Positions 777-25,840 of a stretch of 26,485 nucleotides of DNA are shown here, piece by piece (the stretch's first letter is position 1; each line of letters begins with the position of its first letter). The notes beneath the pieces are model-generated. The model was not told the origin of the DNA. It was given only the letters and a program-made list of their open reading frames with translations, and made no database searches. This DNA comes from a virus. Position numbers and translations under genes: made by a program. The stretch spans positions 1-26,485 of the IMG/VR virus record IMGVR_UViG_3300025930_000034, one strand, 5' to 3'.

Positions 777-2987
777 TTACAGCATCTTGACGGCGATGTC
801 CACCGGAGGGGCAATGGTGGAGCGCACGTACTTGCGCCGTTCGGCAACGTCCTGCGAGCGGTTGGCCAGTTCCTTGCCGGTCTGCGGCGACATGATCACC
901 CACTGCAGCAGGCCCTCGACCTTGAGCCGCTCGTCGAACGTCTTCCAGCCCAGCACGCTCATTGCCCTGCGCAGTTCGGTGGTGCTCTCATAGACCCTGC
1001 GCTCCGGCGTCTCGCGCGCGAGATAATCGCGCAAGGCCTTTTCCGCGACCGACACCGGGATCTCCATGTTGGCCTCGCAGAAGCTGCGCAGCAGCTGCAT
1101 CGCATCACTCTCGCTCTCGCGCTGGATGTCCTTCTTGCGATCGGTCATCGGCGCCGTCTCGCCCAGCAGGACATAGTCGTCGAAGCGGTCTGCCCAGTTG
1201 CGGATGATGCGCAGCCCGTTGCCCTCGATCCACCTGTTGATCCACACCCACTTCTCGCGCGGCCACGGGTTCTCGGTCAGCGTCGGCACGAACCAGCGAC
1301 GATCGCTGTCCTCCAGCTTGAGCGCGCGCATCGAGTTGGAGAACGCCATCACGTGGACCCAGTTCTCGGTGGTGTAGTGGTTGATGTACTTCTCGTTCAC
1401 CGATGTCTCGCGATCGGTGATGTAGGCCTTCAGCTTGTTGGCCGCCTTCCAGCTGCGCCCGGTATAGATCTCGTTGACCACGGCTAACCGCTTGTTGACC
1501 ACCCATGAATTGAACTGGCTGTCCACGATGTCGCTCTCGTTCGGGAACGAGCAATTGTGCCGCCCGACAAGGGGAGCGAGGATCTTCTCGCCCAAGGTGT
1601 TCTTGCCGACGCCATGGGTGACGCTGATCAGCAGCGCCGCAAAGGCCATGCGGATCTCCGGGCGCGCGATCAGGGTCGCGCACCAGCGCATCATGTGGTG
1701 GTGCTCGTGCTTGACCGGGAAAAGATAGGACATGAATTCCAGCCACGGTGCGGGATCGCCGGCCTGCGGCGTGATCAGCGATGGCATGTAAAGGTTGATG
1801 GTGCGCGGTTCGCCGGAGTGACCAATGATGCGTTCGACGGTGTCGGGCCGATAGGCCATCTTGCCGTACTGGCAGGACAACTCCCGCTTCAGCAGGACGC
1901 TGACGTCCTTGGTGTGGCTCAACGCCGACATGTGCCCGTTGAACACCTTGTCGCGGAAGCGCAGCACCGGGCGCTGCAGGCAGATGTACAGGTCCGTCTC
2001 CTCTACCCATCCCCAGACGTTCTTGAACTCGTCGCGCAGCACCGGGACCATCTTCTTGCCAGCCTTGGTGAGATCGGTCGCCCACGTCGCGGGGCGCAGA
2101 TGCTCCAAGAATTGCGGGCCGCGATAGATCGAGACGCCGTCGCGCTCGACGAAGAAGTGCTGCGGCCACGGATCGGCCATGTCGAATGACGGCGGGAAGT
2201 GCTTGTTGAACGTGATCGAGAACACCGTGATGCCATGCAGGTGCTTGGCGATGTCGGCAATGGCACGCCTCCCGGGGTCGTCATTGTCGGCAACGATGAA
2301 GGCCTGCTTGACGCCGGATTTCGACAGCACGCTCCAGTCGGTGCGCCCGGGGTTGAGCGCGCCGCCGATCCAGCCGAGATGGACCGCCCCGGTAAGCTCG
2401 CGCCCCCACGGGTGCTGCTCAAGCTCGCGCCTCCCTTCGTCCGTCGTCGGGTTGGTGAGCCGGTGCATGGCGCGCGCAGCCTTGGCACCCTCGTGCAGGA
2501 ACACCGTGGTGTTGTTGCCGAGGTGCTCCATGCCCCACAATGGCAGCGGGCCTTCCGGCTCGCACATCCGCCACATGTAGTCGTCGAAGCACGTCCACGG
2601 ACGATACTTGCCGCGATCGGTTTCCTCCGTGCGCTCCTGCAGCATGATCAGCTGACCGGCCATATTGCGGAATTCGAACAGGTTCTCCGGGTCGATCAGC
2701 TTCAGCTGTTCGGGCGGCTCGTAGTTCCTGCCCAACAGCTTCGCGGTTGGCCACTGGTAGGTGGCCATGTCTTTCTGGATCGCCTTGAGTTCGCCTTCGG
2801 TGGGAGCGACATCCTCCGGCGCGATCACTTCCAGCTTGGCCGGATTGAAGCGGACGATGTGGGCGTCCTTCCAGTATCTGCCCTTCACCGTCTCGACGAT
2901 TGCCGCGCGGATCGTGCGTGGGATGGCGTGAATGCGTGACAGGTAGGCGGCGATTGATGGAACATCATTCAGATTTGTGATTTTCAT
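777..2987 (-). CDS. Primase-helicase (TOPRIM-like plus DUF5906/SF3-type ATPase)
   Basis: This 736-aa protein probably primes and unwinds DNA at the phage replication fork. The N-terminal half has a TOPRIM-like pattern: FLHEGAKAARA with Glu166, then IVADNDDPGRRA with Asp234 and Asp236. The C-terminal half is an SF3/AAA+-type ATPase of the kind found in phage DUF5906 proteins: Walker A HGVGKNTL (458-465), Walker B-like LAVVNEI (501-507), sensor AFSNS (548-552) and an arginine-finger-like DSDRRWFV (560-567). No N-terminal zinc finger is seen. The start ATG lies inside the 3' end of the polymerase gene (23-nt overlap), which implies translational coupling with the polymerase. The domain order is from sequence; the primase activity is inferred from the family. 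Confidence 0.85.
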   Translation of the reverse strand: MKITNLNDVPSIAAYLSRIHAIPRTIRAAIVETVKGRYWKDAHIVRFNPAKLEVIAPEDVAPTEGELKAIQKDMATYQWPTAKLLGRNYEPPEQLKLIDPENLFEFRNMAGQLIMLQERTEETDRGKYRPWTCFDDYMWRMCEPEGPLPLWGMEHLGNNTTVFLHEGAKAARAMHRLTNPTTDEGRRELEQHPWGRELTGAVHLGWIGGALNPGRTDWSVLSKSGVKQAFIVADNDDPGRRAIADIAKHLHGITVFSITFNKHFPPSFDMADPWPQHFFVERDGVSIYRGPQFLEHLRPATWATDLTKAGKKMVPVLRDEFKNVWGWVEETDLYICLQRPVLRFRDKVFNGHMSALSHTKDVSVLLKRELSCQYGKMAYRPDTVERIIGHSGEPRTINLYMPSLITPQAGDPAPWLEFMSYLFPVKHEHHHMMRWCATLIARPEIRMAFAALLISVTHGVGKNTLGEKILAPLVGRHNCSFPNESDIVDSQFNSWVVNKRLAVVNEIYTGRSWKAANKLKAYITDRETSVNEKYINHYTTENWVHVMAFSNSMRALKLEDSDRRWFVPTLTENPWPREKWVWINRWIEGNGLRIIRNWADRFDDYVLLGETAPMTDRKKDIQRESESDAMQLLRSFCEANMEIPVSVAEKALRDYLARETPERRVYESTTELRRAMSVLGWKTFDERLKVEGLLQWVIMSPQTGKELANRSQDVAERRKYVRSTIAPPVDIAVKML

Positions 2988-5733
2988 TCTCGGCCCCGAT
3001 GAAGCAAAACCCCTCGACCCAGATCATCCGGAAATCAGCCGGGACCATTCCTCTCAATGCGTAATATCCCTTCCCATGGGCGATGATCTTCTTGCCCATG
3101 GGGTCGAAGTCGTAGCGCGACACCTTGGCGAGAATCTCCCCGGTGTCGTCCTCGATCCGCATGTTGAGCGACATCGCGCCGTTGGCGGGCTTCTCGCGAA
3201 GCTCGTTGACGCGGCCGATCACAAGCACGGTGTACTTCTCGCCGTTGGTCTGCACGGCACCGATCTCGCTTGGCGTTGAAACGATGTTGAGTTTCTTCGG
3301 ATCGGGCATCAGCGCGTTGAGAGCGCTGCGGATCGGGTAGAGATTATCGATCTTGGTCTTCATGCGCGCAAGCAGCTTGCCGACATGATCGGGCAGCTGT
3401 TCCATCGGACGCGCACGTTGCGACAGGATTGTTGACTGATGCTTCGGCCCGATGCCGATGATATTCGACAAAGGGCCTACGAGCTTCTTCTGTCCGTCAA
3501 CGTTCCCCACTGTCCACTTGTCGGTGGACACGTCCTTGTCGGCCGGAACGTAGCGGATGCCCTCCTTCTCCAGTTCGCGCAGCAGCTTGATCTGATTCTC
3601 TTCACTGGTGTGCGAGAGTGTGGCTGCGGCGAACTCCAGCTGGTGGTGCGCCTTGAGCCAGCAGCACCAGTAGGAAACGACAGCGTAGGCAACTGCATGG
3701 CTCTTGTTGAACGAGTAGGCGCCGGATTCGCGCAGCACGTTCCAAGTGTGCTCGATCGTGCTGTCGGTCATGCCGTGCTGCTTGCAGCATTTGCTGAACG
3801 TCTGCAGGAACTTGTCCATCTCCTCCGGACCGGCAGACTTGCTGATCAGGCGGCGCAGCGCGGACACGTCAGGCCATTCCATGCCGACAGCACGGCAGAT
3901 CTGCATGATCTGCTCCTGATAGATCACGACGCCCAGTGTCGGCTGCAAAATCGGTTCGAACAGCGGGTGCAGGTAGCTGGCTGCTTCCTGATTGCCCCGG
4001 ATGCGCAACCAGCGCTTGTCCTCGCCCGACTGCATCGGCCCCGGGCGGGCCAGTGCGGTGAGCGCGACCATGTCCTCGAATGCGTGGACCAGCACCTTGC
4101 TGGTCAGCTGCTGCAGCGCGCCGCCATTGAACTGGAAGATGCCGGCGTAGCGGCGCGTGTTGAGGATGTGGAACGATTTCGTATCGTTAAACGGAACCTT
4201 GGACAGCGTGTCGCGCGGAAGGTTGGCCAGCTGCAGTGCATCCTCGAATACCGACAGCTGGGTGAGCCCAAGCATGTCGATCTTCAGCAAGTTGAGCTTC
4301 TCGGCATCGCGGTAGTCGCACATCGTGGCGCCGGAGCGCTGGTCGATTGCCACGGTGTCGCTCACCGGGCCGTTCGTGATCACGACGCCACCGGGATGCT
4401 GGCCAGCGTGGCTTGGGTGGTCGATCAGCTTGGCCGCAACAGCCAGTTCCGGATACTTCCGGTTCAGCACGTTGTTCTTCAGTGCCTCCTCGATCGAGGA
4501 CTTCTCGGCCTGATCGGCTATGCCCTCGACAGCCCACTCCGGGATCTTCAGCGCGATCGCCGCCGCGCGCAGTGCGGAGCGGACCTGAAACATGTTGACG
4601 GTGCCAAGCCGCGCCACACGGTGCGGGCCATACTTCTTGCGCACGTAGTCGAAGATCAGGTTGCGGTTCTGCTCCGAGAAGTCGATGTCGATGTCGGGCA
4701 GGTCCGCACGGTTGACGTCGATGAACCGTTCGAACAACAGGCCATGCGGGATCGGGTCGATCGTGGTGATGCCCAGCAGGTAGCAGACCAGCGAGCCGCA
4801 GCTTGATCCGCGCGCGGGACCGACCATCATGCGCTGGCGCGCGAATGCGACGATGTCGGCGACCATGTAGAAGTAGTCTTCGAATCCCTTGGCGACGATC
4901 GTCGCCAGTTCGCTCGTCAGCCGTCTCGCGTAGGGCTGGCTGCCAAGGTTGACACCAAGCCGCTGCGCACCAGCCTCGCACATCTGCAGCAGGCTGTAGG
5001 GACGCGGCGGGTGCGCCATCTCGGCGCGCTGCAGGGTTGCGGTCGATTGCTGCAGGATGGCGTCACGTCGCTGCAGGGCGACGTCGAGGTTCATCTGGAA
5101 CAGGTCGAAATGGCTGACCGATGCGCGCCATTCGTCGTCGCTCATTATCCACTGGGGATAACTCTGGGTATCGGAGCGCTTGCCGCAGGCCATCTCGTAG
5201 AGGCCGCGATCGTCCTTCCCGGGAAATCGGTTGTCACAGGCGGCGACTAGCAGGTGCTCAGCCTTGAGCACGCGCTTCAGTTGCCCGGGGCTGACCGCTG
5301 GGGACAGCGCGAACCAGAGGCCCGATCGAGGTCCGATCACCTCGACCGGGCTCCGATGACCCATGACAACATTGAGGCTTTCGGCAGCGCGGGCTGCCTG
5401 CTCCAACGTCAGCAGGGGCTCATAGCGGAATTGCTCAGTTGCTACGCTGATGATCTGGTGCAATGGCCGCAGGTCATCCTTGGCAATGAAAGTCCAGTAG
5501 TCAACCACCGGGCGCTTCGCCGTGATGTCCTGCGAGACGGCAAGCTCGACGCCGAACGCTGGCTGCATGCCCAGCTTGCGCACGATGCCGTCCCACTGCA
5601 CCCAGCCGTAGGCCGACGCGGTGTCGGTGATTGGCGCATGCTTGCGGCCATGCTGCTGCAGGATGCTGGCAATGACGGACAGCTGGCCAGCAGCCTTGTG
5701 GAAGGCATAGCCGGTGCGGATGCGGACGCTCAT
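2965..5733 (-). CDS. DNA polymerase III alpha subunit (C-family), degenerate PHP domain
   Basis: This is a replicative C-family DNA polymerase of 922 aa, shorter than the ~1160 aa usual for bacterial DnaE. Seen: an N-terminal PHP-like segment (residues 1-70, ending PAFGVEL) that lacks the metal-binding HxH (RTGYAF) and the ITDHG His (ITDTA), so it is probably catalytically dead. The palm has GPARGSSCGSL (305-315), the catalytic PDIDIDF with Asp349 and Asp351, and the third Asp486 in LLKIDMLGL. A helix-hairpin-helix-like segment (IIGIGPKH) and a C-terminal OB-fold-like stretch with RIEDDTGEI are present. Much of the C-terminal tau-binding region seems to be missing. The start ATG overlaps the preceding 56-aa gene by ATGA. 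The exonuclease two genes upstream could supply the proofreading that an intact PHP does in some homologues. Confidence 0.95.
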   Translation of the reverse strand: MSVRIRTGYAFHKAAGQLSVIASILQQHGRKHAPITDTASAYGWVQWDGIVRKLGMQPAFGVELAVSQDITAKRPVVDYWTFIAKDDLRPLHQIISVATEQFRYEPLLTLEQAARAAESLNVVMGHRSPVEVIGPRSGLWFALSPAVSPGQLKRVLKAEHLLVAACDNRFPGKDDRGLYEMACGKRSDTQSYPQWIMSDDEWRASVSHFDLFQMNLDVALQRRDAILQQSTATLQRAEMAHPPRPYSLLQMCEAGAQRLGVNLGSQPYARRLTSELATIVAKGFEDYFYMVADIVAFARQRMMVGPARGSSCGSLVCYLLGITTIDPIPHGLLFERFIDVNRADLPDIDIDFSEQNRNLIFDYVRKKYGPHRVARLGTVNMFQVRSALRAAAIALKIPEWAVEGIADQAEKSSIEEALKNNVLNRKYPELAVAAKLIDHPSHAGQHPGGVVITNGPVSDTVAIDQRSGATMCDYRDAEKLNLLKIDMLGLTQLSVFEDALQLANLPRDTLSKVPFNDTKSFHILNTRRYAGIFQFNGGALQQLTSKVLVHAFEDMVALTALARPGPMQSGEDKRWLRIRGNQEAASYLHPLFEPILQPTLGVVIYQEQIMQICRAVGMEWPDVSALRRLISKSAGPEEMDKFLQTFSKCCKQHGMTDSTIEHTWNVLRESGAYSFNKSHAVAYAVVSYWCCWLKAHHQLEFAAATLSHTSEENQIKLLRELEKEGIRYVPADKDVSTDKWTVGNVDGQKKLVGPLSNIIGIGPKHQSTILSQRARPMEQLPDHVGKLLARMKTKIDNLYPIRSALNALMPDPKKLNIVSTPSEIGAVQTNGEKYTVLVIGRVNELREKPANGAMSLNMRIEDDTGEILAKVSRYDFDPMGKKIIAHGKGYYALRGMVPADFRMIWVEGFCFIGAENENHKSE

Positions 5734-14697: not shown

Positions 14698-15054
14698 GTG
14701 GCAGTTAGCTCTACCTCGTTCAAGTCTGGCCCGGACCATCGTCGCGGCTCAGGCCGCAAGAAGGGCGTTCCCGAACGCAACACGCGCATCCTGCGCGATG
14801 CCTTAATCCTCGCCGCAGAAGCCGCAGGTGGAGGTGGCAAGGATGGCCTCGTCACTTATCTCACTGAGGTCGCCACCACTAAACCTGCCGCTTTTATCGC
14901 TGTTTTAGGCAAGGTGCTCCCGCTTGAGATTAAGACGCAAGGCGAGACAAATATCCTGATCGAAGTAATCCGCCGTTTCGAGCCGTTGCCGCTAGTCATC
15001 GAGCACAAGCCAAATGGCAAAACCAACGGTCATAAAGATCCAGCTGCCGAATAA
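14698..15054 (+). CDS. terS: Terminase small subunit-like protein (118 aa)
   Basis: Probable DNA-recognition subunit of the packaging motor. The N-terminus has the basic GRKKGVPERNTRILRDAL pattern (19-36) typical of phage small terminase-like proteins, followed by KDGLVTYLTEVATTKPAAFIAVLGKVLPLEI, a helical region with a conserved 'P-A-A-F-...-L-G-K-V-L-P' core. The start is a GTG at 14698 behind GGGAGG. It overlaps the large terminase start by 41 nt, and that gene pair order supports the assignment. The family is divergent, so the name rests on motif plus context. Confidence 0.75.
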   Translation: MAVSSTSFKSGPDHRRGSGRKKGVPERNTRILRDALILAAEAAGGGGKDGLVTYLTEVATTKPAAFIAVLGKVLPLEIKTQGETNILIEVIRRFEPLPLVIEHKPNGKTNGHKDPAAE

Positions 15055-16399
15055 CTGGCGGCCACGCAATTACCAAATCCCGCTCTGGAATTACCTGATC
15101 GATGGCGGCAAGCGAGCGATGGCGATCTGGCATCGCCGCGCCGGCAAGGACGACGTCGCGCTGCACTACACGATGTGCGCCGCGAGCGAGCGCCCGGGAA
15201 ATTATTGGCACTGCCTCCCGGAATACGAACAGGGCCGGAAAGCCATATGGACTGCGGTTAATCCGCACACCGGCAAGCGCCGCATCGACGAGGCTTTCCC
15301 GCGCGAGCTTCGCGAGAATACCAACGACAATGAGATGTTCATTCGCTTCAAGAACGGTTCAACGTGGTCCGTGATCGGCAGCGATCGCTACGATTCGACC
15401 ATGGGCTCTAGCCCTGCAGGCATCGTCTACAGCGAGTGGGCCTTGGCGCATCCCGGAGCTTGGGGTTACCATCGTCCGATCTTGGAGGAGAACGATGGCT
15501 GGGCATTATTCATCACAACACCAAGGGGTCGCAATCATGCAAAAACAATGTTCGACATGGCATCACAAAGTGATGGCTGGTTTACTTCGATTCTTACTGC
15601 TCGTGACACGCAAGCTCTAAATCCTGAGCAACTCGACAACGCGCTGAGTGAATATATCTCGCTGTTCGGCCGCGACGTTGGTGGCGCGCAATTCGAGCAA
15701 GAGTATTTGTGCAATTTCAACGCAGCTATCTTGGGCGCCTACTTCGCGCTCGAAATGCTCGACGTGCGCAAGGAGAAGCGCATCGTTGAGTTCGATGCAG
15801 ACCCTGATCTCCCGGTGCATCGCGCATGGGACATTGGCGTGCGCGACGACACCGCGATCTGGTTCTTCCAGATCCGGGGCGGGCAGGTGGCGCTGCTTGA
15901 CGTCTATGGCGCGTCCACCGCAGGCGTCGAGCACTATGCTGGCGTGATCGAGGCCAAGCGCACGCTGCACGGCTGGCAGGACGGCACCGACTACGTGCCG
16001 CACGACGCCAAGGTGCTCGAATGGGGCGCGGGACGCACCCGCGTCGAGAGCATGCTCGCGTTCGGCCTGCACCCGTTCGTGATCACTGCGGCAAACAAGC
16101 TCGACGGTATCGAGGCCGCGCGCCGCACGCTGCCGATCTGCGTCTTCCACCCGCGCTGCGAGGAGATCGGGATTGCCGCGCTGGAGCAGTACCAGCGCGC
16201 TTGGGACGAGGAACTGAAGGCGTTCAAGCAGGAGGAAAAGCGCAACTGGACCACCCACTACGCCGACGCCTTCCGCTATCTGGCGCAGGCGTGGAAGCTG
16301 CTGCCGATTGCCAAGCCGGTCGATCGCATGCCAAAAGGCTGGGTGATTCCACCCCCGGATGAGCCTACGATCCGGCGACCCGGGAGGATCAGGCTATGA
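15014..16399 (+). CDS. terL: Terminase large subunit
   Basis: The ATPase-nuclease that packages phage DNA into the prohead. The 461-aa length is normal. Seen: a divergent Walker A WHRRAGKDDVAL (39-50), Walker B GIVYSEWAL with Glu141, motif III-like FITTPRGRN (167-175), and an RNase H-like nuclease with AWDIGVRDD (Asp273) and YADAFRYLAQAW (Asp418). The start ATG lies within terS, and no later start keeps the conserved N-terminal segment LPNNWRPRNYQ. A stretch around 15490-15730, between the ATPase and nuclease domains, has lower GC than the rest of the gene. Confidence 0.95.
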   Translation: MAKPTVIKIQLPNNWRPRNYQIPLWNYLIDGGKRAMAIWHRRAGKDDVALHYTMCAASERPGNYWHCLPEYEQGRKAIWTAVNPHTGKRRIDEAFPRELRENTNDNEMFIRFKNGSTWSVIGSDRYDSTMGSSPAGIVYSEWALAHPGAWGYHRPILEENDGWALFITTPRGRNHAKTMFDMASQSDGWFTSILTARDTQALNPEQLDNALSEYISLFGRDVGGAQFEQEYLCNFNAAILGAYFALEMLDVRKEKRIVEFDADPDLPVHRAWDIGVRDDTAIWFFQIRGGQVALLDVYGASTAGVEHYAGVIEAKRTLHGWQDGTDYVPHDAKVLEWGAGRTRVESMLAFGLHPFVITAANKLDGIEAARRTLPICVFHPRCEEIGIAALEQYQRAWDEELKAFKQEEKRNWTTHYADAFRYLAQAWKLLPIAKPVDRMPKGWVIPPPDEPTIRRPGRIRL

Positions 16400-16668: not shown

Positions 16669-16968
16669 ATGGCCAGAATGCCCAGCCTGCCAACCGCAGC
16701 CCAACGCCTGACCACGGCGCGCGCGGGACGCAGGAGCGTCGGCTGGAATGAGGCCGAGGGTGAGTATAGCCAATCGGTCGATTCGAGCGCGATCCGCCAA
16801 GTCGGCTATAGCGAGAACGACCGCACGCTGAGCGTCACGTTCCTGCAGAGCGGGCGCACCTACATCTATTACGAAGTGCCGGTAAGCGTGTACCGTGGCA
16901 TCACCAGTTCGCCGTCGCCGGGGCGCTTCTTCAACGCCAACATCAGGAACCGCTACCGCTTCAGCTGA
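16669..16968 (+). CDS. KTSC-domain protein (99 aa)
   Basis: Residues ~37-97 fit the KTSC domain: a Ser/Ala-rich start (DSSAIRQVGY), a strand pair (LSVTFLQSGRTYIYYEVPVSVY) and SPGRFFNANIRNRY. The domain is small and occurs alone in phages and at the end of lysyl-tRNA synthetases; its biochemical role is not settled. A basic N-terminal ~25 residues precede it. The gene starts 3 nt after the previous stop. The assignment is strong at motif level; the role in the phage is unknown. Confidence 0.85.
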   Translation: MARMPSLPTAAQRLTTARAGRRSVGWNEAEGEYSQSVDSSAIRQVGYSENDRTLSVTFLQSGRTYIYYEVPVSVYRGITSSPSPGRFFNANIRNRYRFS

Positions 16969-16978
16969 GGAGGCTGCA

Positions 16979-17191
16979 ATGATCGGCACCTTGGTGGGAA
17001 TCATCTTCGCGCTGATCATCCTTGGCGTGTTGTGGTGGGGCATCCAGCAGTTGCTCGCGCTTGTGCCGATCGCAGAGCCGTTCAGGACCATCATCTACGT
17101 CGTGTCCGTGATCATCATGGTGCTGATCGTGCTCTGGATCATCACGGTGCTGCTGGGAATGGCCGGCGTGCATGTGCCAAGGATGATTTGA
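16979..17191 (+). CDS. Two-TM small membrane protein, holin-like candidate (70 aa)
   Basis: The 70-aa product has two predicted membrane spans (residues ~3-28, IGTLVGIIFALIILGVLWW; ~38-61, IIYVVSVIIMVLIVLWII) joined by a short loop and a weakly basic end. A strong GAGGAGG site precedes the ATG at 16979, and the gene overlaps the next start by one base (TGATG). Size and topology fit a class II-type holin, and the position between terminase and portal is compatible, but no endolysin or spanin is next to it. Membrane-active anti-superinfection proteins look the same, so 'holin' is tentative. Confidence 0.75.
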   Translation: MIGTLVGIIFALIILGVLWWGIQQLLALVPIAEPFRTIIYVVSVIIMVLIVLWIITVLLGMAGVHVPRMI

Positions 17192-17412
17192 TGACCCTGC
17201 ACAAGGACGCCTTCGGCTATCGCACGCCAACCGACGACCAGCAGGCCAGCATGCAGGTCTGTCGCGAGGCGACCGAGCAGTATGCCATGACCTTGATGGA
17301 GGTCGTGCCCGAGGGCGCCGATCGCACCTTCATCCTGCGCAAGCTGCGCACCCTTTCGATGTGGGTTAATGTGGCAATCACCCGGCATCAGGACGGGAGC
17401 GTGCGGCCATGA
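17191..17412 (+). CDS. Acb2/Tad1 hairpin-domain family protein, putative anti-CBASS cyclic-nucleotide sponge
   Basis: The 73-aa protein matches the small helical-hairpin family (formerly DUF7681) that includes phage Acb2, which sequesters cyclic di- and trinucleotide signals of CBASS, and the hairpin of Tad1, which binds Thoeris gcADPR. Seen: AFGYRTPTDDQQ (7-18), REATEQYAMTLMEVVPEGADR (25-45), KLRTLSMWVNVAITRH (50-65). The pattern F-x-Y-x-x-P, then R-E helix, then V-P-x-x-x-D-R, then L-R-x-x-x-M-W-V-N-x-A-I is that of the family as I recall it. There is no added domain, so Acb2-like size fits better than full Tad1. It is in the late operon, coupled to the membrane gene and to the 51-aa gene. 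Family membership is fairly clear; the ligand is unknown. Confidence 0.75.
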   Translation: MTLHKDAFGYRTPTDDQQASMQVCREATEQYAMTLMEVVPEGADRTFILRKLRTLSMWVNVAITRHQDGSVRP

Positions 17413-17564
17413 AGCGTTGGCCAGTCATCCGGCACATCCGCGCCATCTATTGGGCGTGGCAGGCCGAGGGCTACTACCGCACGTGGCAGAAGGCGCGCAC
17501 GTTTCCGCTTAAGGGCGAGAACGACTACTCGCGCGCGCATCGCATCTGGAGGGGAGAAGAATAG
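17409..17564 (+). CDS. Small basic aromatic protein (51 aa)
   Basis: Unknown function. A 51-aa, very basic and Trp/Tyr-rich protein (AIYWAWQAEGYYRTWQKAR), probably one amphipathic helix. It overlaps the Acb2-like gene by ATGA, and its TAG is directly followed by the portal ATG, with GGAGGGGAGAAGA inside its last codons serving as the portal ribosome-binding site. It may exist mainly to couple translation or may be an accessory virion or anti-host peptide. Confidence 0.65.
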   Translation: MKRWPVIRHIRAIYWAWQAEGYYRTWQKARTFPLKGENDYSRAHRIWRGEE

Positions 17565-19973
17565 ATGTCCATGATCCTCCCGCCTCCCGGCAAGGCAGCC
17601 GAGCCGCGTGGCCGCCAGAGCGACGAGGTCAACGTCTACACCGAGCCGAAGAATGCCGACACGTGGATGGAACTGATCCGCGAGAGCGAGAACGCATTCG
17701 AGGAGTGGAACGACGCCTGCGACAACATCGACAAGCTCTACGCCAACCTTGAGCGGCTGCGCGAGGGGCGGCGCGATCGTCAGTTCCAGATGTTCTGGGC
17801 CAACGTGCAGGTGCTCGCCCCGGTGATCTACGCGCGCGCCCCGGTGCCGGTCGTGGTGCCGAAGTTCAAGGACCGTAAGCCTGTTCCCCAAGCCGCGAGC
17901 GAGATGGCGGAACGCTGCGCCATCGTGTCGTTCGACGATTCCTACATCCATCCCGCGCTGAAGCAGGTCAGGGATGGCCTGACACTGCACGGTCGCGGCG
18001 CGCTCTGGTGCCGGCACGAGCGCAACGCCCGGGGCTGGCAACCCGAGCGCGTCTGCATCGATTACAAGGACAGGCGCGATTTCCTGCACAGTGTCAGCCG
18101 CAGCTGGGCCGAGGTCGAGTGGGTCGCGGCAGCGAGCTATCTGACGCGGCGCGAGGCGAAGAAGCGCTTCCAGAAGTTCTCCGGCGACGCCTACGACAAG
18201 CTCGACTACAAGGTCGAGCACGACACCAAGGATGTTGGCGGCACCGACGATCGCGAGCGTGCCAAGATCTGGGAGGTCTGGCACAAGGGGCTGGAGCTTG
18301 TCGTCTGGGTGAGCGAGGGCTCAGAGGTCCTGCTCGACGAGGCCAAGCCGCACCTTGAACTGCAGGGATACTTCCCCTGCCCGCAGCCGGCATATTCAAC
18401 TACGCAGCCCGGTTCGCTCGTGCCGGTCCCCGACGTCGAGTATTACCGCGACCAGCTGGAGGAATTGAACTCGCTCACCGCGCGCATCCATGCGCTCACC
18501 GAAGCGATCATGGCGAAGGGGTTTTATCCTGCCGGCGGCAACGAGATTGCCGACGCGATCGAGAAAGCGATGCGCACGAGGTCGTCCAGCGAGATCATGG
18601 TCCCGATCAAGAATTGGGCCGCGTTTGGAGGCACCAAGGAAGTCATCGTCTGGTTGCCGCTCGACGTCATCGCCAACACGGTGATGACGCTCGTCGGCAT
18701 CCGCAAGCAGATCATCGACGACATCTACCAGATCGTCGGGTTGTCCGACATCATGCGTGGCTCGACCGATCCGCAGGAGACGCTGGGCGCGCAGAAGCTG
18801 AAGATGCAGTCCGGGTCCGTTCGCATCCGCGACAAGCAGAACGAAATGGTGCGCATCGCGCGCGACTGCGTGCAGATCTCGGTCGAGATCATCACCGAGA
18901 AGTTCGACGACGAGACGATCCTTGCGATGTCGCAGATGGACCTGCCGCGCAAGATGCAGGTGCAGCAGCAGATCCAGCAGCTGCAGCAGCAGGCCGCGCA
19001 GCAGATGATGCAGGTGCAGTCCGATCCGCAGATGATGCAGCAGCTGCAGGCAAACCCGCAGGCGCAACAGGCGGCGCAACAGGCGGCGCAGCAGGCGCTT
19101 GGTCAGATACAATCTCAAATTGAACAGTTGTCGCAGAAGGCGACGGTCGAGGACGTGCTTGCCTTCCTGCGCAACAACCGCGCGCGCAACTTCGTGCTCG
19201 ACATCGAGACGGATTCGACCATCCAGCTGGACGAGCAGCAGGAGAAGGAGCAGCGCGGCGAGTTCGTCACCGTGCTGGCCACGCTGATCCAGCAACTGGG
19301 CACGATGGTGCAGATGCTGCCGCAGAGCGCGAAGTTCGGTGGCGAGGTGCTCAAGTTCGCGATCTCGCCCTATCGCGCCGGCCGCCAGCTGGACGGCTCG
19401 ATCGACGAGATGACCGAGCAGCTGAGCCAGCTTGCAGCGTCTGGCCAGATGCCGCAGCAGGGCGGCCAGCAGGGCAAGGAAGACCCGCAGGCGAAGATGC
19501 AGATCGAGCAGATGAAGATGCAGCACGCCGCGCAGGAGAACGACAAGGACCGCCAGATCCAGATTGCCGAGATCCAGTCTCGCAGCATGGCTGAGCAGAG
19601 GAAGATCGAGAACGAGAAGGAAGTCGCCATGCTGGAATTCCAAGGCGCCGAGAAGGAGCGGCAGGCCAAGATCGCGCAGATCGCGGCGCAGATGCAGCGC
19701 GATCGCGAGAAGCACGCCGCCGATCTGCAGAAGATGCAGGGCGACTTTGTCCTGAACACCCAGAAGCAGCAGGTGGCGCGGCAGGGAATGCAGGAGAAGA
19801 ACGCCATGGTGCGCGAGGGCATGATGATGAAGGCGCAGGGCGACGCCATCAACCGCCAGCAGAAGGCCGCGCAGTTCAATCAGGCGAGCCAGCAGAAGGC
19901 GCAGCAATTCAACCTTGCCGCGCAACAGAAGGAGCGGCAGGCTATGATGCCGAAGGGACCGCCGCGCCAGTGA
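17565..19973 (+). CDS. Portal protein with long Gln-rich coiled-coil C-terminus
   Basis: The 802-aa dodecameric portal through which DNA enters the head. The N-terminal ~450 residues carry the portal pattern seen in podovirus-type phages: WANVQVLAPVIYARAPVPVVVPKF, LTLHGRGALWCRHE, EVWHKGLELVVWVSEG, YYRDQLEELNSLTARIHALTEAI, IMRGSTDPQETLGAQKLK. The last ~330 residues are unusual: Gln/Met/Ala/Lys-rich with long heptad-like helices (IQQLQQQAAQQMMQVQ; KMQIEQMKMQHAAQ; EKERQAKIAQIAAQ), comparable to the helical barrel of P22-type portals but longer. Its start directly follows the stop of the 51-aa gene. The order TerL-small genes-portal supports the assignment. Confidence 0.9.
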   Translation: MSMILPPPGKAAEPRGRQSDEVNVYTEPKNADTWMELIRESENAFEEWNDACDNIDKLYANLERLREGRRDRQFQMFWANVQVLAPVIYARAPVPVVVPKFKDRKPVPQAASEMAERCAIVSFDDSYIHPALKQVRDGLTLHGRGALWCRHERNARGWQPERVCIDYKDRRDFLHSVSRSWAEVEWVAAASYLTRREAKKRFQKFSGDAYDKLDYKVEHDTKDVGGTDDRERAKIWEVWHKGLELVVWVSEGSEVLLDEAKPHLELQGYFPCPQPAYSTTQPGSLVPVPDVEYYRDQLEELNSLTARIHALTEAIMAKGFYPAGGNEIADAIEKAMRTRSSSEIMVPIKNWAAFGGTKEVIVWLPLDVIANTVMTLVGIRKQIIDDIYQIVGLSDIMRGSTDPQETLGAQKLKMQSGSVRIRDKQNEMVRIARDCVQISVEIITEKFDDETILAMSQMDLPRKMQVQQQIQQLQQQAAQQMMQVQSDPQMMQQLQANPQAQQAAQQAAQQALGQIQSQIEQLSQKATVEDVLAFLRNNRARNFVLDIETDSTIQLDEQQEKEQRGEFVTVLATLIQQLGTMVQMLPQSAKFGGEVLKFAISPYRAGRQLDGSIDEMTEQLSQLAASGQMPQQGGQQGKEDPQAKMQIEQMKMQHAAQENDKDRQIQIAEIQSRSMAEQRKIENEKEVAMLEFQGAEKERQAKIAQIAAQMQRDREKHAADLQKMQGDFVLNTQKQQVARQGMQEKNAMVREGMMMKAQGDAINRQQKAAQFNQASQQKAQQFNLAAQQKERQAMMPKGPPRQ
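19062..19097 (+). repeat. Three tandem 12-bp repeats in the portal gene
   Basis: Two exact copies and one single-mismatch copy of GCGCAACAGGCG encode AQQA three times within the Gln-rich coiled coil. This is a slippage-prone site that may vary in number between related phages. Confidence 0.8.
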
Positions 19974-19982
19974 GGACGAGCC

Positions 19983-20852
19983 ATGGCCTACTACGGTGGA
20001 ACTCCGCAGGCGGCTGACCCGCGCTTCCTGATGGACCGCCTGATGCGCAACGGCATGTCGCGCATGCAGGCTGCTGCGGTAGTGGGCAACCTGCAGCGTG
20101 AGAGTTCACTTCACACCAATGCGGTCAACCCGGACGAGGGTGCTTATGGCCTGATGCAGTGGCGCGGGCCGCGTTTCGATGCCCTGCAGGGATTTGCCGC
20201 GCAGCAAAACAAGCCGTGGACCGATCCCGGCGTGCAGGCCGATTTCATCGGGCACGAAATGGCCGGATCTGAGCGAAAGAATGCCCGGGATTTCTACGGT
20301 GCGCAGGACCTCGACAGTGCCACAAAAGCCTTCGGGAACAACGTGGTGCGCTTTGGTGACGACACCTTAGCGGAACGTCAGGTGAACGCCCGCGCAATCT
20401 ATAATTCGCCCATCACCCAGCAGGCGACCGGCACGGCCCCGACAGTTTCACGTGAAACTTCCCGGGCGCTCTACGGCAGCGGCGGCCCCTTGGGCTATGC
20501 GGGTACCACAGGGCTGCTGAATTCGCCCAACCCGAAAGGTATTCGAGGAGGTATCGAGACGCTTGGCGAAGGACTTGGCATGGCTTTCAAGCCACGTGCT
20601 CCCGGTTCGCTGTTTGCCGGGGCTACTGGAGCAAGTCCCGGCAACGTGGCGGCAGCTGGTCCCTCCAAAACCCCAGCCCGGGACCAGCTGTCGTCCGTTC
20701 CGCCCGAGTTTCCGGGAGGCGTCATCCCTGCTCCCACGCCACGCCCGGAGACGGCACCCGGTCCGATGACCCCGGATCGGGATGCTGTCCGCATGGGTGC
20801 GCTGGCTGATTTCGCCGCCTATCGTGACAGCGTGGACTATGGGGTGGGGTGA
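19983..20852 (+). CDS. Virion-associated tail lysozyme-type peptidoglycan hydrolase (289 aa)
   Basis: The N-terminal ~140 residues match the phage tail lysozyme family (lysozyme-like fold): MSRMQAAAVVGNLQRESSL with the likely catalytic Glu40, then NPDEGAYGLMQWRGPRFDAL, QADFIGHEM and ERQVNARAIY. Such proteins travel in the virion and open the cell wall during DNA entry. Residues ~145-289 are Pro/Gly/Ala-rich and disordered, ending in a short helix. The start ATG follows GAGGACGAG. It sits between the portal and the large polyvalent gene, as expected for an ejected protein. A parS-like palindrome lies in the linker codons (20444-20459). Confidence 0.85.
   Translation: MAYYGGTPQAADPRFLMDRLMRNGMSRMQAAAVVGNLQRESSLHTNAVNPDEGAYGLMQWRGPRFDALQGFAAQQNKPWTDPGVQADFIGHEMAGSERKNARDFYGAQDLDSATKAFGNNVVRFGDDTLAERQVNARAIYNSPITQQATGTAPTVSRETSRALYGSGGPLGYAGTTGLLNSPNPKGIRGGIETLGEGLGMAFKPRAPGSLFAGATGASPGNVAAAGPSKTPARDQLSSVPPEFPGGVIPAPTPRPETAPGPMTPDRDAVRMGALADFAAYRDSVDYGVG
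20444..20459. promoter_or_regulatory. parS-like 16-bp perfect palindrome (ParB-type site)
   Basis: AGTTTCACGTGAAACT is a perfect 16-bp palindrome that contains the entire 14-bp chromosomal parS core GTTTCACGTGAAAC; only the outermost base pair differs from the usual TGTTTCACGTGAAACA. It is in codons for TVSRETS, in the disordered linker of the tail lysozyme, so coding constraint is weak. Chance occurrence of a 14-mer in this window is about 1 in 10,000. No parA or parB gene is visible here. Confidence 0.7.
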
Positions 20853-23800
20853 TGGCCTACGAGGAAGAGCTAGACCCCTACTACGGCGTCCCGCGCATCA
20901 CGGTTCGCCCTGAGGCTCCGCCGCTGAACGACCTTCCTTGGGGCAAGCCCGCCGAGGAAGGCGGGAGGCCGATGGGGCGGCTGTTCGAACCGGACCTCTC
21001 AGCTGCCGATCAGCCGCTGCCGCCGATGCAGGGGCGCCTTCTAGAGCCCGACACGTCGCCGGCGGAAAGCCCGGTCAAGGTATGGGCGCGCGAGAATTTG
21101 CCCCGGCTGGATCGCCCGATCATTGCCGGCCCCAACTCGATTGCCGGCGGCGTGATGGGCTCGATCGCTGCCGGTGCACGTGGGCTTGGCGACTGGCTTG
21201 GCGGGCGACCGTCAGAGCCTGCGGCTCCGCGCACCCCGGTCGATCCCACATTCGCCGCACGTGAAATGTGGCAGCAGCAGTACCCTTCGCCCAAGGACCC
21301 GTCCCTGCTGCAGCGTGGCGTCGGAGCGATCGGCACCGCAGCCGAAGAATTGCGGCAGGCTCCGCGCAACATGTTCGAAGGCGAGATCGCCCGCATGCAG
21401 CCGGGGGTCAGCAGCGAGACGTTCCAGCGCGGGCGCGAGCAGTCGATCGGTGCCGCAGCCGACGTCACCTCGACCTTGGCCGGCGCTGGCCCGATCGGCG
21501 CATCGATCCGTGGTGTCCCGATGCTGGGCGGCAAGAGCACGCTGGGCACCTTCGGCAGCGTGATGAGTGCGCCACAAGCCAAGCTCGACAAGCTGCCGCA
21601 GGCGCAGCAGATGCTGAAGGAAGGGCGCCACCTGTCCGATGTCTGGAAGCAGACCGGGTGGACCTTCGACAAGGCCGGCACGCCGTTGCACGAGATCTCC
21701 GACCAGCACGCCTACTTCCGTGGCATCCCGAACAAGTCCGGGCAGCCGGTCGTGCTGGAGGATGTGCTGCACCATCCCGAGCTTTACTCACTCGTTCCGC
21801 AGCTGCGCAAGATGCCGGTCTACGTCGATCCGACGCTGGACGCCTATGGCTCCTACATGCGCGGTGACCTGTCCAAGGGCGACCTTGGCTTCATCATGCT
21901 GGGCGACAAGGCGCTGACCGACTTCAACAAGCGTGGCGAGGTGTTCTCGACCCTGCTGCACGAGGTCACGCACCCGATCCAGTTTCTGGAGAACATGCCG
22001 AAGGGTGGCAACCCAAGGGCGAAGCAGTTGCCGGGAAGCCCAGCTGACCAACTCTACCAGCAGGCGGTTGCAGCGGTGCAGAAGCCCGAGTTCAGCATCG
22101 AGCAATGGGCGGAGAAGTTCGGCAAGCCGGTGAACGATCCTGTCGTGACCGCGTCCTACCGGAATTACGTCGAGGACCACGTGCGCAACGTCAACACTCC
22201 TGAATTCCAGAAGGCGCTGCGCGAGTGGGCCGGCAACCAGAACTACGATCGTGGTGTCGGAGAGATCTACGCGGAGCTTGCGCCGACACGGCAGGATTAC
22301 ACCGACGTGCGCCGCATGGAGATCCCACCGCACATTCAAGAACGTGGTGTTGGCTCAGACAAGATCATTCCGCGCGAGAAGCAGACGGTCGAGTACTACA
22401 CGCCGGAACAGCGCGGCCTCGCAGGCGTGCCGCCGCCGACGCGCGAGCAACTGGGCTTCCCGCCGCGCCAGCCGGGTCCGCTCTACACCGAGCCCGAGCA
22501 GCTTGGTCTGTTCCGCCAGAAGGGCGGCACGCCGCAGCTTGGTGACGTCCTCAATCCCGTGCCTCCCGAGATGCGGGCTAAAGGTGCCACCGGGTCCAAG
22601 TCGCCGTTCGAAAATGTCGATGTGACGTGGAACGGCAGGCAGATGCGCGAATGGTCGCCGCAGGACTGGCACGAGTTTGGCAAGGCGCACGGCATCGACA
22701 ATCTTGGCCCGCTCACCGACCTGAAGTCGTTCAGGACCCCGGACGGCTATCAGTTCACCTTGCCGGGTGGCACCGATGGCACGTGGACCTATTATGACCT
22801 GCTGCACATGAAGGCCAACCCGATCGACGCATCGCGTGTGCCGCGCGAACTGCACATCGAGATGCAGAAGAAGCTGGGGCGCACCATGACGGAGAACGGT
22901 GCGGAGGCTTCGCCGCAGAAGATCTGGGATGGCCTGATGCTGGGCATCACGTCGCCAAGCAATCCGTTGTTCCCGAATCAGATGAGCGCATCGCGCCTGC
23001 GCCTGCGCGGCAACCTGAGCGAATCGGAAACGATCAACAAGCTGGCCGACAGCATTCCGTGGGAAGCCGGATCGAAGGTCACACGCGACGGTCAGCCGGT
23101 GACCAAGGAAATGCTGATGGAGTATGACCACAAGATCGGTCAGATGTTTGACCTGCAATCCGGCAAGGCGAACCCTCCCGGTCTGGGGACGCGCGGCGGC
23201 GTCAACTACACCTACATTGCCGAACTGGCGCAGATGTTCAGGAAGAACCCGGACTGGTTCCGCAAGACGCCGAACGAATCATGGGCCGAGTTCACCGAAC
23301 GTCTGGCCACGCAGACCAAGGGTCTGTCGATGAAGACCGGATCGTTCAGCGGCGTGTGGCAGGACCCGTACAACGCAGCGATCAGCGCGATCGACCGGCA
23401 CATGGCGAGGGAATTCGAGAAGCGTGGCGGCCTGTTCCTCAATCCGACAGAGGAGGAGGCATGGCGCCAGAAGACGATCAAGAGTTGGAACAAGGACAGG
23501 GACTTGACCGGCGACAGCGCGATCAAGGACTGGAATTCTCTCATTCAGCAGAAGGGTTCGGACAGCTTCTTGGGCGAGAAGCTGCTCGAATATGTCGGGG
23601 CGCACAGCAAGCCGCAGACGCGGCTCAAGTCGGGCGAGTTGAATCCCGACGTTCCTGCGCATCTGCAGACCCCCGGCTTTTATGAGCCGGAGAACGCACT
23701 GATCATGGGCGAGGCCTACAAGCGCGCGCTCGCCGTCAACCAGCTGGCCGCGAATGAATCGGGCCTGAACCTGTTCATGAGCCAGTGGCTCGAATGGGAT

Positions 23801-24064
23801 CGCATCCGCAAGCGTTTCGAGCCGCACGAGAGCCAATTTCCCGGGCTTGGCAAATTGCCCGCTCCGTCGAAGCAGCAGCTGGAAAGCGCGCTTGCGGCGC
23901 ACGTCGAGACTGGGCATTGGGACGTCAGCAAAAAGCCGGGTGCGTCGCCCGAGATGAAACCGACTCGTCCGCTTGGGCGCAACCCGTCCGAAATGGGATA
24001 TCTTGGAATTGCCGGTGGTGCCGCTCTTGGCAGCATTGCCGATCCGCGAAACTACCAGCAGTGA
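20852..24064 (+). CDS. Large polyvalent/internal virion protein with HExxH (LPD23-like) domain (1070 aa)
   Basis: Probable ejected virion protein. Residues ~285-385 match a large polyvalent-protein-associated domain of the LPD23 type: LEDVLHHPELYSLVPQL, DLGFIMLG, then LLHEVTHPIQFLENMPKGGN with a zincin-like HEVTH (His370, Glu371, His374). Further on, KIWDGLMLGITSPSNPLFPNQ (~690-710) resembles a region of other phage virion proteins (DUF7178-like, from memory). The N-terminal ~150 residues are Pro-rich and disordered. The ATG at 20852 overlaps the lysozyme stop (TGATG); a GTG three bases earlier is possible. Such multi-domain proteins are thought to enter the cell with the DNA and act early against the host. 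Confidence 0.85.
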   Translation: MAYEEELDPYYGVPRITVRPEAPPLNDLPWGKPAEEGGRPMGRLFEPDLSAADQPLPPMQGRLLEPDTSPAESPVKVWARENLPRLDRPIIAGPNSIAGGVMGSIAAGARGLGDWLGGRPSEPAAPRTPVDPTFAAREMWQQQYPSPKDPSLLQRGVGAIGTAAEELRQAPRNMFEGEIARMQPGVSSETFQRGREQSIGAAADVTSTLAGAGPIGASIRGVPMLGGKSTLGTFGSVMSAPQAKLDKLPQAQQMLKEGRHLSDVWKQTGWTFDKAGTPLHEISDQHAYFRGIPNKSGQPVVLEDVLHHPELYSLVPQLRKMPVYVDPTLDAYGSYMRGDLSKGDLGFIMLGDKALTDFNKRGEVFSTLLHEVTHPIQFLENMPKGGNPRAKQLPGSPADQLYQQAVAAVQKPEFSIEQWAEKFGKPVNDPVVTASYRNYVEDHVRNVNTPEFQKALREWAGNQNYDRGVGEIYAELAPTRQDYTDVRRMEIPPHIQERGVGSDKIIPREKQTVEYYTPEQRGLAGVPPPTREQLGFPPRQPGPLYTEPEQLGLFRQKGGTPQLGDVLNPVPPEMRAKGATGSKSPFENVDVTWNGRQMREWSPQDWHEFGKAHGIDNLGPLTDLKSFRTPDGYQFTLPGGTDGTWTYYDLLHMKANPIDASRVPRELHIEMQKKLGRTMTENGAEASPQKIWDGLMLGITSPSNPLFPNQMSASRLRLRGNLSESETINKLADSIPWEAGSKVTRDGQPVTKEMLMEYDHKIGQMFDLQSGKANPPGLGTRGGVNYTYIAELAQMFRKNPDWFRKTPNESWAEFTERLATQTKGLSMKTGSFSGVWQDPYNAAISAIDRHMAREFEKRGGLFLNPTEEEAWRQKTIKSWNKDRDLTGDSAIKDWNSLIQQKGSDSFLGEKLLEYVGAHSKPQTRLKSGELNPDVPAHLQTPGFYEPENALIMGEAYKRALAVNQLAANESGLNLFMSQWLEWDRIRKRFEPHESQFPGLGKLPAPSKQQLESALAAHVETGHWDVSKKPGASPEMKPTRPLGRNPSEMGYLGIAGGAALGSIADPRNYQQ

Positions 24065-24851: not shown

Positions 24852-25073
24852 ATGGCTGATGATCCGAATGACCCGAACAAGGGCCCCGGTCAGCCGGGGT
24901 TCGTGCCGGAGGCTCCCAAGCTTGAGCCGTTGCCTTCGAACGAGGAACTGCACGCGATGAAGCGTGCCGAGTTGGATAACCTTGCCGAGGCGCGTGGCGT
25001 CGATGTCAGCGGCGCGAGCAACAAGGACGAGGTGATCGAGCTACTCAAGAAGGACGCAAGGAAGCGGAAATGA
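24852..25073 (+). CDS. Small HeH/LEM-like helical protein (73 aa)
   Basis: Begins with a Pro/Asp-rich flexible part (NDPNKGPGQPGFVPEAP), then residues ~33-70 (LHAMKRAELDNLAEARGVDVSG, then NKDEVIELLKK) form a helix-extended-loop-helix pattern as in HeH/LEM/SAP-like domains, which often sit at the ends of phage virion or scaffold proteins and may bind DNA. The AGGAG site lies just before the ATG, and the stop overlaps the SPRY gene by ATGA. The role is inferred. Confidence 0.7.
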   Translation: MADDPNDPNKGPGQPGFVPEAPKLEPLPSNEELHAMKRAELDNLAEARGVDVSGASNKDEVIELLKKDARKRK

Positions 25074-25840
25074 GCCTAGCCGTAGTCACCGTTGCTTCCG
25101 GTGGGTTGCCGGTGGTCGAGCTTGCTGCGGGCAAGCTTGGCCTCCCGGTCACCGAGGCGGCGAACGGTCGCGGCATTGCCGTGACCAAGGTGGTCGGCGC
25201 GCCGGGACTGCCAGTCGTGTTCGATACGATTGGGGTGGGGCCGGGGCCTGTGACGAATGCGACGCTAGACCCGGCCACCGTCACTGCAGTCACGCTCTCT
25301 GGCGGCAATCTCGTCGCGACCAACACAGGTACGACATCGGCGGATCAGGGTGTGCGGGTTGCAACGGTAGCAGGGAAAACCACCGGCAAGTATTATTTTG
25401 AGATGACGGGCAATTCCGTGACAAGCGCAGGCGTCAATCACGGTGTTGGTATTGGGACGCCGACATCGACCTACATCAACATGGGCAATGGAGGGACAAC
25501 TGGCGTTGTTGGGTACCGGACAGGAAGCGTCTACTCAAACGGCAGTTCTGTTTTGACATTTGCGGGTTACAGCAACGGTGAAATAGCTGGCGTTGCGGTT
25601 GATCTTGATAATCGTAAGATTTGGTTTCGCAAATCACCATCCGGTATCTGGAACGGCAATGCTTCTTTTAATCCTGCGACCAATGTTGGTGGCGCGACGA
25701 TTCCGGCCGGGACGATGGTTCCGTTCTGTCTTTTTGGCGGCGCGGGTGGTTCTGCTGGTAGTTTTGTCACGATCAACTTCGGCGCATCGGCCTTCAGCGG
25801 CGCGGTGCCTGCCGGGTTCACCGCAGGGTGGCCCGCATGA
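25070..25840 (+). CDS. SPRY-domain virion-type protein (256 aa)
   Basis: Residues ~1-60 are a Gly/Val/Pro-rich repeat module (VASGGLPVVELA, GLPVTEAANGRGIAVTKV, GAPGLPVVF), a type common in phage structural proteins and probably the virion anchor. Residues ~95-256 form a SPRY (B30.2-like) beta sandwich: GKYYFEMTG, HGVGIGTP, VVGYRTGSVYSNG, IAGVAVDLDNRKIWFRKSPSG and ATIPAGTMVPFCLFGG. SPRY domains bind proteins or glycans, which suits an exposed decoration. The SPRY part is less GC-rich than the N-terminal part, a sign of domain shuffling. The start overlaps the HeH-like gene by ATGA. Confidence 0.8.
   Translation: MSLAVVTVASGGLPVVELAAGKLGLPVTEAANGRGIAVTKVVGAPGLPVVFDTIGVGPGPVTNATLDPATVTAVTLSGGNLVATNTGTTSADQGVRVATVAGKTTGKYYFEMTGNSVTSAGVNHGVGIGTPTSTYINMGNGGTTGVVGYRTGSVYSNGSSVLTFAGYSNGEIAGVAVDLDNRKIWFRKSPSGIWNGNASFNPATNVGGATIPAGTMVPFCLFGGAGGSAGSFVTINFGASAFSGAVPAGFTAGWPA

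Follow-up and report, generated by a model that had tools for sequence, protein, structure and literature searches.

The Acb2/Tad1 hairpin family comprises phage proteins known as sponges for immune signals. T4 Vs.4 (Acb2; 7uq2) and the Pseudomonas phage Acb2 p26 (8h2j, 8h2x) are helical hairpins with a pocket tyrosine and a basic residue, and both carry an insertion of ~20 residues between their helices. In T4 Acb2, substitution of the pocket tyrosine (Y8A) has been reported to disrupt the binding of cyclic dinucleotides, on which another residue, F82, is reported to stack once they are bound (PMC12657218). Tad1 (7uav, 7uaw, 8kbb) bears the hairpin at its C-terminus and carries an extra N-terminal beta-sheet domain (PMC12043709), while Acb2 homolog 43, solved with 3'cADPR (9ptq), is a short hairpin without inter-helix insertion.

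The window analyzed here is the whole 26,485-nt stretch of viral DNA from IMG/VR record IMGVR_UViG_3300025930_000034. It includes a 73-amino-acid open reading frame, originally predicted from sequence motifs as an Acb2/Tad1-family candidate, which lies between the genes for the terminase and the portal:

15014-16399, + strand: terminase large subunit (phrog_2, 3.9e-22)
16669-16968, + strand: KTSC-domain protein of an accessory cassette (PF13619, 75 bits)
16979-17191, + strand: 70-aa hydrophobic, probable membrane protein, overlapping the hairpin gene (96% conserved in locus L001)
17191-17412, + strand: 73-aa protein assigned to the Acb2/Tad1 hairpin family (PF24729, AlphaFold2 hairpin, structural matches)
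17409-17564, + strand: 51-aa open reading frame between the hairpin gene and the portal gene (absent in loci L001 and L002)
17565-19973, + strand: portal protein (phrog_12082, 8.9e-179)

Like Acb2 homolog 43, the window protein is a short hairpin with uninterrupted helices, but the two share 13% identity, the inter-helix turn reads R-E-K in homolog 43 and A-D-R in the window protein, and the aligned part of homolog 43 lacks the D-G-S-P-R tail described below. T4 Vs.4 and Pseudomonas Acb2 p26 (18-21% identity) share with it the hairpin and the equal spacing of tyrosine and basic residue, whereas their inter-helix insertion has no counterpart in the window. The C-terminal hairpin of Tad1 shares the family signature up to M-W (C-R-E-N-A-M-A-I-T-K-L-Q-E-C-L-M-W). 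The window protein is a hairpin only, with 14 residues ahead of the first helix and no strand predicted by AlphaFold2; lacking the N-terminal beta-sheet domain, it was rejected as a Tad1 proper. The same family also includes, at ~28-33% identity, hairpin proteins from Lactococcus phage 1706 and from phages of Mycobacterium and Gordonia; these lack the full T-R-x-x-D-G-S-P-R tail.

Family membership and predicted fold

The profile search proposed with the original prediction yielded a significant match: PF24729 (Acb2_Tad1_hairpin) aligned to the window protein over positions 1-58 of its 58-position model, at 30.4 bits (E 4.4e-7) against a curated cut-off of 27 bits. A second profile of unknown function, phrog_1454, matched at 9e-11. 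All of the motifs that had been cited were present, namely F8-G-Y10-R-T-P13, R25-E26 in helix 1, V39-P-E-G-A-D44-R45 and M57-W-V-N60-V-A-I63, and these two profile matches indicate that they go beyond chance resemblance. Across 46 aligned sequences, PF24729 was recognized in 43 (best E 1.5e-25) and other families in none. Five positions (P13, R25, M57, N60, I63) were invariant in this alignment and four (F8, Y10, Q17, P40) nearly so, the conservation of M57, N60, and I63 being partly imposed by the retrieval pattern and that of the remaining six being free of it.

Against the PDB, the A2 profile ranked Acb2 homolog 43 first (E 0.0025), with Tad1 and Vs.4 as weak matches; such matches came from profiles only, a single-sequence phmmer search of the PDB giving nothing relevant for the hairpin protein, and PADLOC and NCBIfam held no model that fitted it. 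Relatives were found in viral contigs and in bacterial contigs, including one from a Rhizobiales bacterium, as well as at ~30% identity in isolated phages of Mycobacterium, Gordonia, Arthrobacter, Lactococcus, and Streptomyces.

The AlphaFold2 monomer, built from a 46-row alignment, is a two-helix hairpin (mean pLDDT 88.5) with antiparallel helices at residues 15-38 and 43-64, block-mean pLDDT above 90 over residues 11-60, and both ends poorly ordered. The hairpin fold originally foreseen was thus recovered in this single-chain model, and its best matches among solved structures were Acb2-family proteins. VIA-align ranked Acb2 homolog 43 first (Z 7.7, rmsd 1.8 Å over 63 residues), followed by T4 Vs.4 with cGAMP (Z 6.7), with the Acb2 structure 8h2x (Z 6.2) falling among unrelated helical hairpins that scored up to Z 6.3. 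Foldseek against solved structures also placed Acb2 homolog 43 and T4 Vs.4 first (E 0.37 and 0.99); weak E-values of this kind are expected of a short hairpin. Among viral models in BFVD, the best 12 matches were all named as Acb2/Tad1 hairpin proteins. Since Foldseek E-values exceeded 0.1 and unrelated hairpins reached Z 6.3, the match of the modeled fold is by itself weak evidence for family membership, but it becomes convincing when combined with the profile match. We conclude that the window protein is almost certainly a genuine new member of this family of immune-signal sponges.

Operon context and placement in relatives

The interval between terminase and portal holds, in order, an 89-aa open reading frame, the KTSC-domain protein, the 70-aa hydrophobic protein, the hairpin gene, and the 51-aa frame. 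The start codon of the hairpin gene shares bases with the stop codon of the preceding gene (TGATG) and its stop shares bases with the start of the next frame, which places it inside a tightly packed operon. Compared with a 97% identical relative in locus L001, ten codons differ, and because eight of these changes are synonymous and two non-synonymous, the open reading frame is a real gene under coding constraint; the frame is also kept among relatives. The location had been described as lying between a holin-like gene and the portal, which needs amending on both sides: the 51-aa frame intervenes before the portal, and the upstream 70-aa protein matched no Pfam or PHROG family, so that its identification as a holin was set aside. 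The expectation that the gene would escape position-based searches stands for these searches only, as a plain Pfam scan detects it.

When the late region was compared with phages by megablast, no match was returned. Downstream of the portal gene, positions 20849-24064 encode a 1071-aa protein that carries a large-polyvalent-protein domain, LPD23 (PF18838), and a 256-aa protein encoded at 25070-25840, also in the late region, displays a sub-threshold SPRY match (21.2 bits for a cut-off of 26.3).

In two isolated phages whose portals are related to that of the window, Rhizobium phage RHph_I3_18 and Bradyrhizobium phage ppBjS10J-1, the terminase gene directly adjoins the portal gene with zero genes between them; the small genes found at this junction in the window are hence an accessory cassette. 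Within the same lineage, the order inside the cassette varies, the hairpin gene preceding the KTSC gene in loci L014 and L016 and following it in the window. In unrelated phages, too, the hairpin gene is found close to packaging genes: it lies between a different terminase and portal (L044) or upstream of the terminase (L051), and in Gordonia phage ScarletRaider (region 2977-5280 of locus L006) a hairpin relative directly follows the portal gene and precedes genes annotated as an RNA ligase and a VIP2-like ADP-ribosyltransferase.

We counted distances to the terminase in the viral records behind loci L015-L074 (G001-G035), 20 of which had a detectable terminase. The hairpin gene was located within 4 kb of it in 11 of these 20 records, where 4.3 were expected (p 0.0007); after evident pairs were dropped, 8 of 16 remained near the terminase against 3.3 expected (p 0.007), the kinship of the remaining records being uncontrolled. 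We regard this proximity as a lead. Other relatives were 20-40 kb from the terminase, and those of loci L024, L036, and L072 were located in replication regions, next to Sak4-like, RNA polymerase, or helicase genes. Taken together, the presence of relatives elsewhere and the absence of the gene beside related portals indicate that it is not a core packaging component.

Pocket residues, turn, and C-terminal tail

The residues discussed in this section are encoded as follows:

17212-17229, + strand: F-G-Y-R-T-P, codons 8-13 (Y10 aligned to T4 Acb2 Y8 and Pseudomonas Acb2 Y11)
17263-17265, + strand: R25 codon, helix 1 (aligned to T4 K23 and Acb2 K26; invariant in 46 sequences)
17308-17325, + strand: inter-helix turn P-E-G-A-D-R, codons 40-45 (P-E-G-R-E-K in Acb2 homolog 43)
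17380-17409, + strand: subclade tail T-R-H-Q-D-G-S-V-R-P, codons 64-73 (conserved in the subclade; low pLDDT in the monomer)

The suggested comparison with the pocket of solved Acb2 was favorable: in a MAFFT alignment of the window protein with T4 Vs.4 and Pseudomonas Acb2, the known tyrosine is kept as Y10 and the position of K26, which we take to be a ligand contact in Acb2, remains basic as R25, with a gap-free spacing between the two in all three proteins. Two other positions differ. That of T4 F82 is occupied by T64, and is not a phenylalanine in Pseudomonas Acb2 either. That of the turn arginine of Acb2 (R67), presumably a trinucleotide contact, is occupied by A43, with P or A at this position in 45 of the 47 sequences of the subclade; a literature text search did not confirm the roles of Acb2 R67 or T28.

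This subclade consists of the 47 distinct sequences most similar to the window protein, which we compared with 19 more distant ones. Features mostly absent from the latter include the turn residues G42, P/A43, D44, and K/R45, the helix 2 residues R50 and R53, and the tail T64-R65-x-x-D68-G69-S70-P71-R72, in which the window protein has V71. The usual turn of the subclade is G-P-D-K, the R-E-K turn being found in Acb2 homolog 43 and in some of the more distant sequences. Within the tail, T64, R65, and G69 are conserved in all 47 members, R72 in 46, and D68 in 41. Conservation at positions 57-66 is partly fixed by the retrieval pattern, from which the turn, R50/R53, and the D-G-S-P-R motif are free. 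Conservation of the tail despite its disorder in the modeled monomer would be expected if it became ordered upon assembly or ligand binding, and this turn and tail may tune which ligand is bound. As the subclade lacks the R-E-K turn and has this conserved tail, the ligand of the window protein should not be assumed.

Probable function and competing explanations

The window protein quite probably sequesters an immune nucleotide signal. By analogy with solved relatives, which are hexamers, such a stand-alone hairpin would most likely oligomerize, and the predicted oligomer would capture, without cleaving it, a cyclic nucleotide alarm signal from CBASS or Thoeris, which would keep the effector silent during phage replication. 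We infer 3',3'-cyclic dinucleotides or a cADPR isomer as candidate ligands. A narrower form of this function, i.e., capture of a signal outside the classical CBASS set, such as a cADPR isomer, is a real possibility, though somewhat less likely than not. The best fold match, which has the same short-hairpin size, was solved with 3'cADPR, and the subclade is set apart by its turn and its conserved tail; however, a common fold reveals no ligand, and Y10 and R25 are identical and similar, respectively, to residues of cyclic-dinucleotide binders. Going further, it is rather unlikely but conceivable that the altered turn and tail of subclade sponges build a different pocket, suited to a signal outside the preferences of known Acb2/Tad1 proteins, and that these sponges tend to travel with the terminase and portal genes.

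The genomic position of the window gene could suggest that this family member has lost sequestration and become, e.g., a small packaging or head accessory protein tied to the terminase and portal, given that the window gene sits between the two and that its relatives are enriched near the terminase. We consider this improbable: relatives are also found in replication regions or far from the terminase, the gene is missing from this place in phages with related portals, and the pocket tyrosine and R25 are kept. Short two-helix hairpins do yield many unrelated structural matches, but it is extremely unlikely that the family assignment itself reflects such a coincidence, as the profile match exceeds the curated cut-off, relatives are consistently recognized as members, and 14 well-known control genomes yielded zero matches in the same search.

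Overall, the window protein and its relatives add a widespread, uncharacterized group of probable immune-signal sponges, mostly from uncultivated phages, to a family so far characterized in few model phages, and the conserved tail offers a clear starting point for testing how the specificity of sponges may shift.
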